This document shows positions 3,300-7,544 of a DNA stretch of 11,735 bases, in pieces (the stretch's first letter is position 1; each line of letters begins with the position of its first letter). The translations under genes and the position numbers were made by a program. The DNA comes from Chloroflexota bacterium (lineage in GTDB: Bacteria; Chloroflexota; Anaerolineae; Anaerolineales; UBA4823), in assembly GCA_021849525.1 (NCBI GenBank), contig JAJZSS010000015.1, positions 1 through 11,735 on the forward strand, read 5' to 3'. The notes beneath the pieces are model-generated. The model was not told the DNA's origin. It ran no database searches and worked only from the letters and a program-made list of their open reading frames with translations.

Positions 3300-3371
3300 T
3301 GGGCCCGGTAGGTTTCGAACCTACGACCAAACGGTTATGAGCCGTCCGCTCTGCCACTGAGCTACGGGCCC
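3300..3371 (-). tRNA. tRNA with CAT anticodon (elongator Met or Ile2)
   Basis: A full cloverleaf is visible. The acceptor stem is GGGCCCG paired with CGGGCCC. The D-arm reads GCTC...GAGC, the anticodon loop is CTCATAA, the T-arm is GTAGG-TTCGAAA-CCTAC, and the discriminator is A. The paired G1:C72 and the lack of three G:C pairs in the anticodon stem exclude initiator tRNA. A CAT anticodon can be elongator methionine or, after lysidine modification of C34, the isoleucine tRNA for AUA. Sequence alone does not decide here. No CCA is encoded, so it must be added post-transcriptionally. It is the second gene of the unit. Confidence 0.93.
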
Positions 3372-3384
3372 TGAAAAGCGAAAG

Positions 3385-3456
3385 AGCGGGCGATGGGACT
3401 CGAACCCACGAATATCAGCTTGGAAGGCTGATGCCTTACCACTTGGCGACGCCCGC
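3385..3456 (-). tRNA. tRNA-Gly (anticodon TCC)
   Basis: Cloverleaf with acceptor stem GCGGGCG paired with CGCCCGC, D-arm GCC...GGC, anticodon loop CTTCCAA, and T-loop TTCGAGT. The discriminator is T, as expected for bacterial glycine tRNA. It reads GGA and, by wobble, GGG codons. CCA is not encoded. It is first in the minus-strand unit, 13 bases before the CAT tRNA. Confidence 0.95.
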
Positions 3457-3513: not shown

Positions 3514-5208
3514 TCAGCCCGTGAATGGTCGCGTGAGTTCCAATTTTAAGCGCATCTTGACATCGTTATCCACAAACAGCGATCCATGGTACTGCTGCAC
3601 AGGGTGAATCTCACTTCCTTCCAACACTGTGCTGGATTCCAGGATGGTAGAATCACCATTCGGCTCCATCCGGTAGTCAATTTTTTTGATTGTTCCAGAA
3701 GTATTCTTATGGATGGTCAGGCTGGCGATCGTTTTCAAACCGTAGCCGAAGATAGAGACGGCTGGTATGCTGGAGCGTACACCCAGCTCCCGCCGAAACT
3801 CCTTCCCGGCGCGCAACAAGGGAAGGTACTGCTCGGGTAACCAGCTCTCATCTTCCAGGAAGTTGACTTTGGCGCTACTGGCATCGACCTGTAAGGCGTA
3901 GGTTGGCAGAATCTGGTAGCTGGAGGGAAATGACATACTCACCTGGCGCAACCTCTCGCCCATGATCCCGAAAGGCAGGACCTCGGGGGCATCGAGCAGG
4001 CTGGTGAGTGCTTTGACGACTCCCCGGTGTGGACCACCCATTAAAATCACCCGCTCAACCCGAGCTTTTCCACCCAGGCGTTCAATGTAATAACGGCTTA
4101 CCATGGTGCCCAAACTATGCCCAATGATCACAAGGGGCTGAGTGCGCGGTAAGTTTTCGATCAACGCGCCCAATTGGGCAGCAGAGCTGCGTACATCCTG
4201 GCGCCAATCGTAGGCGAACTCAAAGAAATCAACCCCGCGCTGATAACCAAGCTCTTCAACCAGGTAATCCCCCAGCCGGTTGTACTGGTCCAGTTTAATT
4301 AAGTTGGGGACGATCACTACTTCATCAAGAATTTTGCGAGGCTCAACGGGTGAGGGATAACGCAGCATTTCAGGATTGGTGAACAAGGTCTTGATATTAG
4401 GAAACAGCCGCTCACTGCCGCGCCACAACTCGCTGCCCATTAAGCCAGGCACGAAAACCACAATCCGCCGGGCCGAACCTTTTGGCAGGGATGCATCTGC
4501 CATGGTGAGCGAATCTTCTTCGAAACCGCTTTTAAAGACGATCGCTGCATCTCCAATCTTAAATTCATCGCCATCTTGAAGAATTAACTGGTCGACCCGC
4601 GCCTCCCCGAACCAGGTTCCATTGGTTGAACCCAGGTCACGCAGCACAAAGATCCCGCCTTTGTGCTGAATTTCGGCATGGTTGCGAGAGACCCTGGGAT
4701 GTTCCAACATGAGCTGGTTGGCGTCCGTCCGGCCAATACTGAGGTTATCGACATCCCCCAGGGGAATTTCCCAGGTTCTGCGTGGGGTCATGACAACCAA
4801 CCGCGGCTGGCTTGTCTCATTGATCGAAAATGGAAGTACTTCCCGGTCTAAGGCCTGCGCAAGATCAGCTTCCCGGTCAATAACGGTCAGGCCAGCCTCT
4901 TCAGTCATAGCAGAGACTTCATAGCGGAGCTGGTGACCCCCTAAAGTGATTAAATCACCCGGACGCAATAATATTCTCTGGACGCGCTGGTCATTGACCA
5001 GACTACCATTAGAAGAGCCGAGATCTACCAGCGTGCATCCCGCAGAGCTGCACTCCAGACGAGCATGATTGCGTGAGATCCTGCTGTCAGAAAGGATAAT
5101 ATCGTTGGTGTTGGAGCGCCCCAGGGTTATCCGAGACTTGCCCAGCTCATACTCTTGTTCGGGGCCGCCCTCTGAAAGCAGGACCAATTTTCCCAGACTT
5201 TGTTCCAT
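3514..5208 (-). CDS. double-FHA protein fused to an LCAT/lipase-like alpha/beta hydrolase
   Basis: The 564-residue protein joins phosphothreonine readers to an enzyme. FHA domain 1 covers about residues 7-98 (GR at 30-31, SRNH at 45-48, SSNG at 65-68). FHA domain 2 covers about 136-226 (GR at 159-160, SRNH at 174-177, STNG at 194-197). From about 247 an alpha/beta hydrolase follows, resembling lecithin:cholesterol acyltransferase-type lipases. It has the oxyanion-region motif VPGLMGSEL at 253-261, YDWRQDV at 333-339, nucleophile elbow GHSLG with S365, GGPHRG at 391-396, probable acid D519 in NGDST, and probable base H541. There is no signal peptide or membrane segment, so it should be cytosolic, perhaps at the membrane through its partner. 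The ATG has GAGAGG four bases upstream. It starts 15 bases after the kinase stop, so the two genes form an operon. Lipid or ester hydrolysis or acyl transfer is inferred from fold motifs; the substrate is unknown. Confidence 0.9.
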   Translation of the reverse strand: MEQSLGKLVLLSEGGPEQEYELGKSRITLGRSNTNDIILSDSRISRNHARLECSSAGCTLVDLGSSNGSLVNDQRVQRILLRPGDLITLGGHQLRYEVSAMTEEAGLTVIDREADLAQALDREVLPFSINETSQPRLVVMTPRRTWEIPLGDVDNLSIGRTDANQLMLEHPRVSRNHAEIQHKGGIFVLRDLGSTNGTWFGEARVDQLILQDGDEFKIGDAAIVFKSGFEEDSLTMADASLPKGSARRIVVFVPGLMGSELWRGSERLFPNIKTLFTNPEMLRYPSPVEPRKILDEVVIVPNLIKLDQYNRLGDYLVEELGYQRGVDFFEFAYDWRQDVRSSAAQLGALIENLPRTQPLVIIGHSLGTMVSRYYIERLGGKARVERVILMGGPHRGVVKALTSLLDAPEVLPFGIMGERLRQVSMSFPSSYQILPTYALQVDASSAKVNFLEDESWLPEQYLPLLRAGKEFRRELGVRSSIPAVSIFGYGLKTIASLTIHKNTSGTIKKIDYRMEPNGDSTILESSTVLEGSEIHPVQQYHGSLFVDNDVKMRLKLELTRPFTG

Positions 5209-5223
5209 AATACCTCTCGAGAA

Positions 5224-7455
5224 TTAAGGCAGGGCAAAACAATTTCCACTTCCGGTCACAACGGAGTGATCGGGATTGGCTATCAGCGCACAGAGCTGTG
5301 TGGCATTCTGCGGCCGGTCGATCTCGGCATAACCAGTAAATGGGGAAATCCCACCATACATCAAGCGGTTCCCACCGCCCGTGGAACCCACCTGTTCAGC
5401 GGAAAATACATCAAAAAAGAAGTGGATATGGGTGCCAGGTAAAGCTGGAGTAAAGCCGTTGGCGCTGAACTCGACAACATAGCGTCCCTGGTCGTCAATT
5501 GTAATTTGTGAAATTTGGACCGCCAGATTTGACGAACTGCCTTCCGGGGTGGGAGGAGCTTCAGCAGCCGGGAGGGTACTTAGATCGCCAGAGAAGTCGG
5601 AGATATTCCGCGGCAGCCAGCAAACCTGTCCAGCGCTTACGGGATCATCCACAGTCCACCAGGCCTCATCCAATGATATACCCGTGACCAGAAGCGGCTG
5701 TCCGGCGCTCAGCTGGCCCTGAACCGGATAAATTGACCCGGGCCCTGCCAGGCATGCCGCATCCAGGATGGGTACTGCAACATTCACATCTGGCAAAATG
5801 TAACAATTACCAGAGTCCGTCTGAATGCTGTGGTCTGTATTCGCCACCCGGATGCATAATTGGGTAGCTGCAGCGGGTCTATCCGTCGTGCGATATCCTT
5901 CAAACGGGCGCGGTCCGCCATACAAGATCCAAGGTCCTTTACCCGGGTGACCTGCTTGCTCCTGGGATACGCTATTGAAATAAAAATGCACGTGCTGACC
6001 GGGGAGAACCTCTGTGTACTCAAATGTTTCGTAGTCAACAACGTAAATTCCGCGATCATCAATCCTGATGCCGTTGATGCGAGAGTATGGTACACCTACG
6101 GGGATCGTAGGGGTGGGTGATGGGGTAATCGTCGGGGTCAGGGTAGGTGGGAGAGTCGGGGTAATCTTTGGCGTTTGGGTAGCGCTGGCAATCAGGATAG
6201 GGGCAGCAGCCTCGACCGGTTGAGTCGCTGGTGGAGCGGTAGTTGCCAGTGGCTCTTCTGGCGGTGGGGTTGCATTACCCCGGCGTGCCAGGGAAAAAAT
6301 AACCACAAAGATAAGCAACAATGCACCAGCAATACCACCCCACAAAGCCAGATTCCGCGGGGAATGCTTCTGCTGGTCTGCGATTGGAGGTGCGGGCGGG
6401 ATGTTAGGTTTTGAGGCCTGAACACTTCGAGATTCAACAGGCGGGGGTTTTCCCTCGATGTAAGTTGACTCTGATTGTCCACTGGCAGCACTCTCCATGG
6501 GAGCCGTTTGAGGGGACCTGCTGCCTTGTACATCACTGTATCCAGGCAATGGGACCGCTTGTTGAATTTTTGGCTGGTCAGCCAGGGTGGGTGGGGGGAC
6601 AGCATCAGATAGCGAGGCCAATACGCCTCTCAAGGCATCGGCGAAATCCGCCATGGACTCATAGCGCTCGGCGCGGTTTTTGGAAAGGGCTTTCTCAATC
6701 ACCGCAGCCAGATTTGCAGGCACCTCGGGGCGTAATTGGCGCAAATCGGGCAGAGGGTCATTGAGGTGCATCATCATCAACGTCATCGCCGAATCAGCCT
6801 CGAAAGGTGGACGTCCATTGACACACTCAAAAAGGGTAACCGCCAGTGAATATTGATCGGAGCGTGGGTCTGGAAGTTCGCCGCGGATCAACTCGGGAGG
6901 CAGATACAACGCAGTACCGACCACAGCCCCCGTCGCGGTATGTTTCTCTCCGCCGATGATTTTGACGATTCCGAAATCCATCAAAATCGCCTGGCCATGA
7001 ATGTCGATCATTATATTGGCCGGCTTGATATCGCGATGGACGATCCCGCGGGCATGGGCATAGCCAGCCGCGCCGCAAATATTAAGGATATAGCCAATAG
7101 CTTCATTGAGCGGCATACGGCGGTTACTCGAATTCAAGCGCCGTAAACGCTGCTGCAGCGTTTCACCAGCCACAAATTCCTGGACCATATAATAAACATT
7201 CTGATCATGGTTGAAATCGTAGACCTGGACAATATTCGGGTGCCGAAGCTGGGCTACGGCCGCAGCTTCTTCTTCGAATCGAAAAACAAACCGAGGGTCA
7301 TCAGCCAGGTGAGAGTGGATCATTTTTATCGCCACAACGCGCTTCAGGTTGGGGTCATAAGCTTTATAGACAGCCGACATCCCGCCCTGACCGACCATTT
7401 CATCAAGGCGATAGCGTTCACCCAGCGTCTGTCCGATCCAATTCGGACGAAACAT
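5224..7455 (-). CDS. transmembrane Ser/Thr protein kinase with duplicated ectodomain and SH3b-like module
   Basis: Phosphorylates Ser/Thr of cytosolic proteins in response to an outside cue. The Hanks-type kinase domain (about 14-276) has glycine loop GQGGMSAVY (22-30), K44, helix-C E63, HRDIKPAN (140-147) with catalytic D142, DFG (160-162), activation-loop threonines T173, T175 and T181, and LPPE (185-188) in place of the usual APE. All catalytic residues are present. A Pro/Ser/Gln-rich juxtamembrane stretch (278-367) leads to one membrane helix (369-390). A Thr-Pro-rich stalk (396-456), repeat A (460-555), an SH3b-like module (about 556-620, cysteines 568 and 612) and repeat B (648-743) follow. 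PASTA repeats, usual in PknB-type kinases, are absent. The ATG has AGGAGG seven bases upstream and a consensus promoter. It heads the operon with the FHA-hydrolase. The function of repeats A and B is unknown to me. Confidence 0.95.
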   Translation of the reverse strand: MFRPNWIGQTLGERYRLDEMVGQGGMSAVYKAYDPNLKRVVAIKMIHSHLADDPRFVFRFEEEAAAVAQLRHPNIVQVYDFNHDQNVYYMVQEFVAGETLQQRLRRLNSSNRRMPLNEAIGYILNICGAAGYAHARGIVHRDIKPANIMIDIHGQAILMDFGIVKIIGGEKHTATGAVVGTALYLPPELIRGELPDPRSDQYSLAVTLFECVNGRPPFEADSAMTLMMMHLNDPLPDLRQLRPEVPANLAAVIEKALSKNRAERYESMADFADALRGVLASLSDAVPPPTLADQPKIQQAVPLPGYSDVQGSRSPQTAPMESAASGQSESTYIEGKPPPVESRSVQASKPNIPPAPPIADQQKHSPRNLALWGGIAGALLLIFVVIFSLARRGNATPPPEEPLATTAPPATQPVEAAAPILIASATQTPKITPTLPPTLTPTITPSPTPTIPVGVPYSRINGIRIDDRGIYVVDYETFEYTEVLPGQHVHFYFNSVSQEQAGHPGKGPWILYGGPRPFEGYRTTDRPAAATQLCIRVANTDHSIQTDSGNCYILPDVNVAVPILDAACLAGPGSIYPVQGQLSAGQPLLVTGISLDEAWWTVDDPVSAGQVCWLPRNISDFSGDLSTLPAAEAPPTPEGSSSNLAVQISQITIDDQGRYVVEFSANGFTPALPGTHIHFFFDVFSAEQVGSTGGGNRLMYGGISPFTGYAEIDRPQNATQLCALIANPDHSVVTGSGNCFALP
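5227..5514 (-). repeat. ectodomain repeat B of the kinase (protein-level duplication)
   Basis: Encodes residues 648-743, ending at the kinase C-terminus. It aligns without gaps to repeat A. By eye 50 of 96 positions are identical. Shared elements are IDD, YVV, LPG, HxHFxF, EQ, YGG..PF.GY, DRP..ATQLC, AN.DHS and SGNC..LP. Each copy carries two cysteines (722 and 739 here) that could form a disulfide outside the membrane, and an HxH pair plus a further histidine (676, 678, 730). Confidence 0.8.
5791..6078 (-). repeat. ectodomain repeat A of the kinase (protein-level duplication)
   Basis: Encodes residues 460-555, directly after the Thr-Pro-rich stalk. It is the partner of repeat B and is separated from it by the SH3b-like module and a short Pro-rich linker. 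Equivalent positions are H488, H490 and H542, with cysteines 534 and 551. I do not recognise a named family for this unit. Predicted secondary structure from the alternating hydrophobic pattern is mostly beta. Confidence 0.8.
6100..6161 (+). other. two adjacent G-quadruplex-type motifs
   Basis: Plus-strand G-runs at 6100-6103, 6110-6113, 6115-6117 and 6122-6125 have loops of 6, 1 and 4 bases. A second set at 6134-6137, 6141-6143, 6149-6151 and 6158-6161 has loops of 3, 5 and 6. Both satisfy the common G3+N1-7 rule. They lie on the template strand of the kinase gene, where CCN and ACN codons encode the Thr-Pro stalk. They may therefore be a by-product of protein composition. Confidence 0.5.
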
Positions 7456-7516
7456 GGAATACCCTCCTGGCTTGGGAAAATATCAAATTACGTGTAATAT
7501 CATAATTAATATCCAG

Positions 7517-7544
7517 ATTATATCTACATTAAATAACATGTCAA
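7517..7544 (-). promoter_or_regulatory. consensus promoter of the kinase operon
   Basis: On the minus strand a perfect TTGACA (7544-7539) and a perfect TATAAT (7522-7517) are 16 bases apart. Transcription would start near 7510, giving a leader of about 55 bases that contains the AGGAGG at 7468-7463. In the leader region an inverted repeat, ATTAC-GT-GTAAT (7487-7498), could be an operator or a minor hairpin. Confidence 0.8.

Follow-up and report, generated by a model that had tools for sequence, protein, structure and literature searches.

A membrane-spanning Ser/Thr protein kinase and a hydrolase that carries two FHA domains (FHA-LCAT) are encoded next to each other in the 11,735 nt of DNA that make up the window analysed here (contig 529; the genome amounts to 2.6 Mb and is 68% complete), and this kinase-lipase gene unit is real and conserved. 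It resembles operons of the known kinase-FHA type, differs from them in an output of a new kind, and suggests a docking code that can be tested. The case is built by computation from the domain make-up of the two proteins, a predicted fold, the linkage of the hydrolase gene with kinases of varied kinds and a motif contrast between partner kinases and others. To our knowledge, a dedicated output is known for only a few Ser/Thr kinases of bacteria. The conserved linkage points to a signalling circuit acting on membrane fats; one enzyme has kept an adjacent kinase while the kinase group, the sensor tail and the side on which the kinase gene lies have changed, which makes the family a natural experiment on kinase-substrate specificity.

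The two genes and their products

The preliminary description had placed the two genes 15 bases apart under a consensus promoter, with the kinase supplying phosphothreonines and its partner two domains that read them. The spacing and the promoter match stand as made. The ORFs are separated by exactly 15 nt (5209-5223), with a Shine-Dalgarno-like GAGAGG in this spacer ahead of the hydrolase ATG, and a 12/12 match to a sigma-70-type promoter lies ahead of the kinase. When the 222-nt intergenic region was shuffled 20,000 times, a perfect match on either strand turned up 13 times, and 2000 shuffles of the whole window gave 6: a match like that at 7544..7517 (-) is rare by chance, and marks a predicted promoter whose use is not proven by the match. 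The features, all on the minus strand, are as follows.

7517..7544 (-), sigma-70-type promoter match, TTGACA-N16-TATAAT, upstream of the kinase
5224..7455 (-), transmembrane Ser/Thr kinase, 743 aa (ORF; Pkinase match; invariant HRD, DFG and activation loop)
6658..7413 (-), kinase domain, residues 15-266 (Pkinase)
6931..6939 (-), activation-loop T173-x-T175, both threonines invariant in the 38-sequence alignment A3
6577..6588 (-), juxtamembrane T290-L-A-D, proposed phospho-docking site (motif enriched in partner kinases, scarce in others)
6454..6465 (-), juxtamembrane T331-Y-I-E, proposed second docking site (motif match)
6283..6351 (-), transmembrane helix, residues 369-391 (hydropathy 2.62 at 369; helix in the model)
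5227..6087 (-), ectodomain, two ~100-aa beta repeats (about 457-556 and 645-743) flanking an SH3b-like segment (model pLDDT 73-96 per ten-residue block)
3514..5208 (-), FHA-FHA-LCAT hydrolase, 564 aa (ORF; Pfam; model mean pLDDT 84.4)
4909..5208 (-), FHA domain 1, residues about 1-100 (Pfam 27-90)
4876..4887 (-), linker-1 motif T108-V-I-D111 (conservation, 47 rows)
4522..4818 (-), FHA domain 2, residues about 131-229 (Pfam; fold)
4495..4506 (-), linker-2 motif T235-M-A-D238 (conservation, 47 rows)
3526..4473 (-), LCAT/phospholipase A2-like alpha/beta hydrolase domain, residues 246-561 (Pfam LCAT; predicted fold)
4114..4116 (-), nucleophile Ser365 (GHSLG), 47/47, aligned with the Ser replaced by Ala in 4x92 (S165A)
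3652..3654 (-), probable acid Asp519, 46/47 with N in one row, assigned by motif
3586..3588 (-), probable catalytic His541, 47/47, assigned by motif

A divergently transcribed Rrf2-type regulator gene lies upstream of the kinase. At the other end, genes for tRNA-Met(cat) and tRNA-Gly(tcc) (3300-3456, minus strand) follow on the same strand 57 nt past the FHA-LCAT stop codon, and a terminator-like site (3296-3264, minus strand) comes after both, so placed that read-through from the kinase promoter into the two tRNA genes is possible.

The kinase matches Pkinase with 163.6 bits (cut-off 31.7; E 7.5e-48), as a Hanks-type Ser/Thr kinase should. Across 38 aligned kinases, the window's included (alignment A3, 38 of 120 listed homologues), H140 R141 D142 and D160 F161 G162 are invariant, K44 is nearly so, and the fixed residues of H172-T173-x-T175-G176 in the activation loop are also invariant; T173 and T175 may resemble the paired threonines of PknB. 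Of the proposed phosphothreonines, those of the activation loop are invariant candidates, and juxtamembrane T290 and T331 are sequence candidates only. The segment that holds the latter (residues 285-368) is modelled with low confidence and is probably disordered; it leads into a single strong transmembrane helix at about residues 369-391. The ectodomain repeats belong to no Pfam family that was found, and SH3_3 is recognised in 4 of 38 members. A kinase domain is present in 108 of the 120 listed ectodomain homologues, which have from 2 to 5 repeats. The repeat, ~100 aa long, has a conserved HxHF, a later His and two cysteines, and one listed FHA protein (P0131) carries five repeats of this type and has no kinase domain. 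The PASTA/PknB identity (NF033483) was rejected, its 336.4 bits falling below the cut-off of 450 with no PASTA family at E up to 1, and Pfam ABC1 and APH matches on the kinase were taken to be cross-hits.

In the hydrolase, Pfam finds FHA in two stretches (E 3.9e-39), which upholds the description of two readers. Conservation was scored on 47 rows (alignment A2: 14 of 120 listed homologues plus 33 of the 39 loci described below, L083, L086, L088, L090, L093 and L096 being omitted). The phosphate-binding residues are kept in at least 44 of the 47 rows in both domains (R31 46/47, S45 46/47, H48 47/47 and N67 44/47 in FHA1; R160 46/47, S174 47/47, H177 47/47 and N196 46/47 in FHA2), as expected of phosphothreonine readers. 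FHA-LCAT has no N-terminal extension, and a conserved threonine motif comes after each FHA domain: position 108 is T in 37 and S in 3 of 47 rows, with D (31), N (10) or E (4) at +3, in a stretch (103-112) of pLDDT below 50; position 235 is T in 43 of 47, with D (22), E (16) or Q (2) at +3. The catalytic domain matches LCAT (PF02450) with 50.4 bits against a cut-off of 21 (E 2.5e-13), and its predicted model matches the LCAT/PLA2G15 (phospholipase A2) fold over 305 residues. Among the triad candidates only Ser365 is placed by alignment to a solved structure, Asp519 and His541 being placed by motif. Hydropathy finds no transmembrane helix (best 19-residue mean 1.35) and the protein is apparently intracellular. 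Group XV (lysosomal) phospholipase A2 and LCAT share with it the predicted fold, the GHSLG serine and the conserved histidine, but the window protein is bacterial, apparently intracellular and preceded by two FHA domains. A literature search that covered mainly openly accessible papers found no FHA-LCAT protein in print, and the available portions of the literature on Chloroflexi FHA/kinase operons treat no FHA-lipase.

Conserved linkage to varied kinases

Scanning named genomes with the FHA-LCAT alignment yielded 49 loci, 39 of them FHA-LCAT genes (L058-L096; L090 runs off the end of its contig, and in L096 the gene is split over several ORFs). Most come from Chloroflexota metagenome-assembled genomes (MAGs); a few carry the labels Acidobacteria, Actinobacteria, Pseudomonadales or Nitrospirales, for which binning errors are possible. 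The protein is rare and patchily distributed (at E 1e-60 in 3 of 399 other genomes of a phylum sample and 9 of 37 others of the family), and this rarity limits a claim that rests on computation.

The preliminary description had proposed a search for conserved adjacency of the two genes in relatives, and counted its absence as a refutation. The search did not refute the circuit, for adjacency is strongly conserved: in 24 of 37 loci the gene directly beside FHA-LCAT encodes a kinase, on the same strand in 22, and kinases fill 24 of 72 adjacent slots versus 2 of 259 slots at least three genes away (Fisher p 9e-16). The background is 151 kinase matches in ten family genomes totalling about 45 Mb. 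(This count leaves aside L082 and L086, which have no FHA-LCAT gene model, and the fragment L097; a kinase is next in L082 and L097, and an FHA-ABC exporter gene, of the kind discussed below, is next in L086.) With L082 and L086 added by inspection, 32 of 39 loci have a kinase within two genes or an FHA-ABC neighbour, and seven have neither (L061, L072, L078, L085, L087, L089 and L094). Homologues of the LCAT domain that lack FHA domains have a kinase next door in none of 14 loci, three of which have a flank on one side only; among the 14, L053 has a kinase about 4 kb away with ORFs between. A separate and looser check, taking in 119 of the 120 listed FHA-LCAT entries, matched 18 contigs of at least 5 kb by exact size between 69 FHA-LCAT and 82 ectodomain entries; 3 of the 18 ectodomain proteins (P0159, P0175, P0223) have no recognised kinase domain. 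L114 repeats L084 (near-identical FHA-LCAT), and L113 is, to judge by length, the L075 contig.

What is conserved is a kinase in general; the narrower expectation, of a kinase with the window's ectodomain, was not borne out. That kind is recognised by Pfam upstream of FHA-LCAT in five loci, and no more than 5 of 37 have it as the adjoining gene (L058, L059, L060, L064 and L065); in L095 it lies two genes away on the other strand. Since other tails stand in its place elsewhere, the conserved unit is a membrane kinase plus FHA-LCAT. In L062 and L063 a WD40 kinase lies downstream; L069, L071, L074 and L079-L081 have a TPR kinase in that position (as does L070, on the other strand), a PD40 kinase diverges from FHA-LCAT in L083, and short-tailed kinases lie upstream in seven further loci, so that the gene order flips among loci. 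Some neighbours are worth recording in passing. L061 (8441-9982, plus strand) has, just before FHA-LCAT, a WD40 protein with no recognised kinase domain, whereas in the related L062 and L063 a kinase-WD40 protein is encoded directly after it. In each of L079, L080 and L081 the gene after the TPR kinase is a 1547-aa ORF, all three belonging to one cluster. Large ORFs lie beside or near short-tailed partner kinases in L073 (11661-14417) and L075 (2473-7921), the former encoding a guanylate cyclase/NB-ARC-like/TPR protein.

The labels of the partner tails cluster on the FHA-LCAT tree, and distances among kinases correlate with distances among FHA-LCAT proteins (25 pairs, r 0.85, 0 of 2000 permutations). 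The trees agree, and much of the linkage is therefore shared inheritance. A tree enlarged by 26 other kinases of these genomes (and without the near-repeats L076 and L081) divides the partners among three well-supported groups, and non-partners are also found in two of the three; the loosely placed partners L083, L093 and L095 sit on long branches outside all three, and partner and non-partner labels require 7 changes, 3 of them forced by starred branches. A first tree with four control kinases had suggested a single co-inherited partner kinase; the 26 added kinases gave at least three groups, and an AU test rejects the 24 main partners as a single clade (p 3e-7, for a group named after the tree had been seen). 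Either the partners differ through swapping or there was one old pairing whose duplicates moved away. Because the tree fits both alike, the claim is confined to partners differing and does not extend to how often swaps occurred; under both readings tails and gene order have changed.

The juxtamembrane threonine motif

The kinase alignment shows a T-x-x-D just past the kinase domain in a segment that is otherwise unalignable. T..[DE] is found in 101 of the 108 ectodomain kinases versus a shuffle mean of 48.3, and in the same 108 the patterns T.D, T...D, D..T and S..D have no excess over shuffles. The signal holds for less redundant ectodomain kinases (89 of 96; shuffle 43.8) and, in these 96, with the first 15 residues removed (64; shuffle 34.8). 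In a forward test on partners of non-ectodomain type, 15 of 16 have it (shuffle mean 7.4, maximum 14 in 300 shuffles), as do 5 of 12 control kinases (shuffle mean 4.4). The non-partners (two sets, of 26 and 27 kinases, from ten genomes) were drawn from the best-scoring 30 loci per search, and controls were required to have a transmembrane segment 25-260 residues past the kinase domain, by which 12 and 17 were kept; L130 and L139 were then dropped from the 12 because their segment ran into another folded domain.

A refined motif, T.[AILVMF][DE], is present in 7 of 7 ectodomain or WD40 partners, 12 of 16 other partners and 2 of 10 controls; it was picked after the partner sequences had been seen and is forward on the fresh control set only. 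There, unchanged, it occurs in 0 of 17 kinases, and T..[DE] in 3 of 17. Pooled, 19 of 23 partners have it versus 2 of 27 others (p 5e-8, kinship ignored), the shuffle means being 4.6 and 3.2; removing the ectodomain/WD40 group leaves 12 of 16 versus 2 of 27 (p 8e-6, kinship again ignored). (The 23 do not count the window kinase; L070, L082 and L088 are omitted for want of a usable juxtamembrane segment, and L083, L093 and L095, which are not same-strand next genes, are included.) The four partners without the motif are L066, L077, L093 and L095. The two non-partners with it, L142 (in genome G013) and L131 (in G011), may serve other FHA proteins. In the N-terminal parts of FHA-ABC proteins the motif is wholly absent in 4 of 7. 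Most short-tailed partners carry T-E-[VIL]-D, which can be likened to the pTEAD that, in the available text of PMC5549992, is bound by Rad53 FHA1. The motif contrast suggests a concrete docking code that can be tested.

A probable recruitment circuit and its alternatives

We consider it reasonably probable that a membrane kinase with a dedicated lipase output, in full a recruitment-and-switch mechanism, accounts for these findings. The kinase would sense something outside the cell through its beta-repeat/SH3b-like ectodomain and would autophosphorylate its activation loop and, as the motif contrast suggests, its juxtamembrane T-x-hydrophobic-[D/E] threonines. The two FHA domains would bind these phosphothreonines, which would draw a cytosolic phospholipase A2/LCAT-like enzyme up to the membrane's inner face. 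The docked kinase may then phosphorylate T108 and T235 in the linkers, which the FHA domains may also bind, within or between molecules, switching orientation or activity; the analogy here is with GarA/OdhI and Rv1747. To judge by its fold, the enzyme would hydrolyse or transfer acyl chains of membrane glycerolipids; if it acts on glycerophospholipids, it would link receptor-like kinases to bacterial phospholipase activity. In clusters with an FHA-ABC gene, export of lipid or glycolipid is probably under the control of that kinase as well. As to the sign of control, we favour recruitment and activation, since the proposed docking motif adjoins the membrane, where the substrate would be.

FhaA, whose manner of binding offers one precedent, is not known to be an enzyme. 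PknB and FhaA are alike to the proposed pair in that an FHA protein reads the phosphorylated juxtamembrane segment of a kinase (PMC12077195, in the part available); the difference is that no PASTA domains were found in the window kinase. Among the closest known arrangements is that of PknF and Rv1747 of Mycobacterium tuberculosis, where, in the portion of PMC3908365 available, two genes form an operon, one for a Ser/Thr kinase and one for a dual-FHA output at the membrane, and both FHA domains are needed for interaction. A kinase beside a dual-FHA partner is conserved here too, and Rv1747-like proteins occur in some FHA-LCAT clusters, but the window's output is predicted to be a cytosolic LCAT/phospholipase A2-like hydrolase and not a transporter, and its kinase has another ectodomain. 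Rv1747 also forms phosphorylation-dependent condensates (PMC9312465, available part).

GarA and OdhI (with PknB and PknG) suggest a different arrangement, in which phosphorylated T108 and T235 are bound by the protein's own FHA domains, turning the lipase off, and the juxtamembrane segment is not a docking site. FHA2 is closest in sequence and fold to GarA/OdhI, both linkers have a conserved TxxD/E, and threonine motifs outside the FHA domain are a possible switch; one GarA-related reference is reportedly titled on an intramolecular switch. In GarA a conserved ETTS phosphorylation motif lies on the N-terminal side of the FHA domain (PMC12321487, in the part available). That motif, however, precedes a single FHA domain that regulates enzymes in trans, whereas here two FHA domains are fused to the enzyme and each motif follows its domain, and autoinhibition leaves the motif excess beside the membrane in partner kinases unexplained. 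We rate it unlikely.

The substrate invites a second doubt. The preliminary description had read the pair as a membrane or envelope-lipid response system; the link to lipids is strengthened by the phospholipase A2 fold and by exporter neighbours, and the substrate side of that reading is predicted only. That the hydrolase is an esterase or thioesterase working on another acylated substrate, and not a lipase, has a modest chance of being right, and we think it unlikely.

The same description had taken the pair to be a compact system of two genes. In the window's 68%-complete genome no FHA-ABC match was found at E 1e-40, and no FHA-ABC, PP2C, PrsW-like or VWA gene adjoins the kinase/FHA-LCAT pair in the window. 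Across relatives, 9 of 39 clusters include an FHA-ABC gene, in two cases as a fragment, so the system does not always consist of two genes and a strictly two-gene one was set aside. Seven encode FHA, ABC ATPase and ABC-2 membrane proteins of Rv1747-like architecture (L058, L059, L066, L068, L083, L086 and L088); in L060 and L064 there are fragments at a contig edge from which the FHA part is absent. It could then be argued that the exporter, as in PknF-Rv1747, is the main output and that FHA-LCAT is an accessory, preparing the lipid for export or recycling it: of the 10 family genomes with FHA-LCAT, 8 have a match to the FHA-ABC protein at E 1e-40, and L068 and L086 have FHA-ABC with no kinase seen nearby (the L086 contig is short). 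Against this, the window's genome and also G011, which is 98% complete, lack such a match at E 1e-40, and 30 of 39 loci have no FHA-ABC in the cluster; a central exporter is decidedly improbable.

Two readings fare worse. An effector role for the hydrolase, as a T6SS-type (Tle4-like) lipase or in anti-phage defence under PpkA/Fha-like control, is very improbable and was set aside: at E up to 0.001 FHA-LCAT has no match among the PADLOC families, PADLOC matches to the kinase cover the kinase domain common to all such kinases, and no secretion-system family appears among the eight window genes scanned. Neighbours with no functional link, by chance or inherited synteny, are barely credible: inheritance alone could explain the close relatives, given the agreeing distances, and seven loci have neither kinase nor FHA-ABC, but the slot counts and the FHA-less loci contradict chance, the genes change their order, and the same place is filled by kinases that differ in group and tail.

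Returning to recruitment by a membrane kinase, a wider generalization is attractive and is offered tentatively, as somewhat short of probable: that T-x-hydrophobic-[D/E] is a docking code used by several kinase groups and by the lipase linkers, in a modular pathway with FHA-ABC and PP2C members, exchangeable sensor kinases and a membrane-remodelling phospholipase/acyltransferase. In L091 and L092 (34-35% identity), from two distant MAGs labelled Pseudomonadales, FHA-LCAT is followed by a kinase and then by a PP2C phosphatase. Further along, PrsW-like and VWA genes come after PP2C in L091 (778-10300), and L092 (6228-15890) has genes of the same clusters; in L091 a divergent gene for a cNMP-binding protein of ~1100 aa precedes FHA-LCAT.
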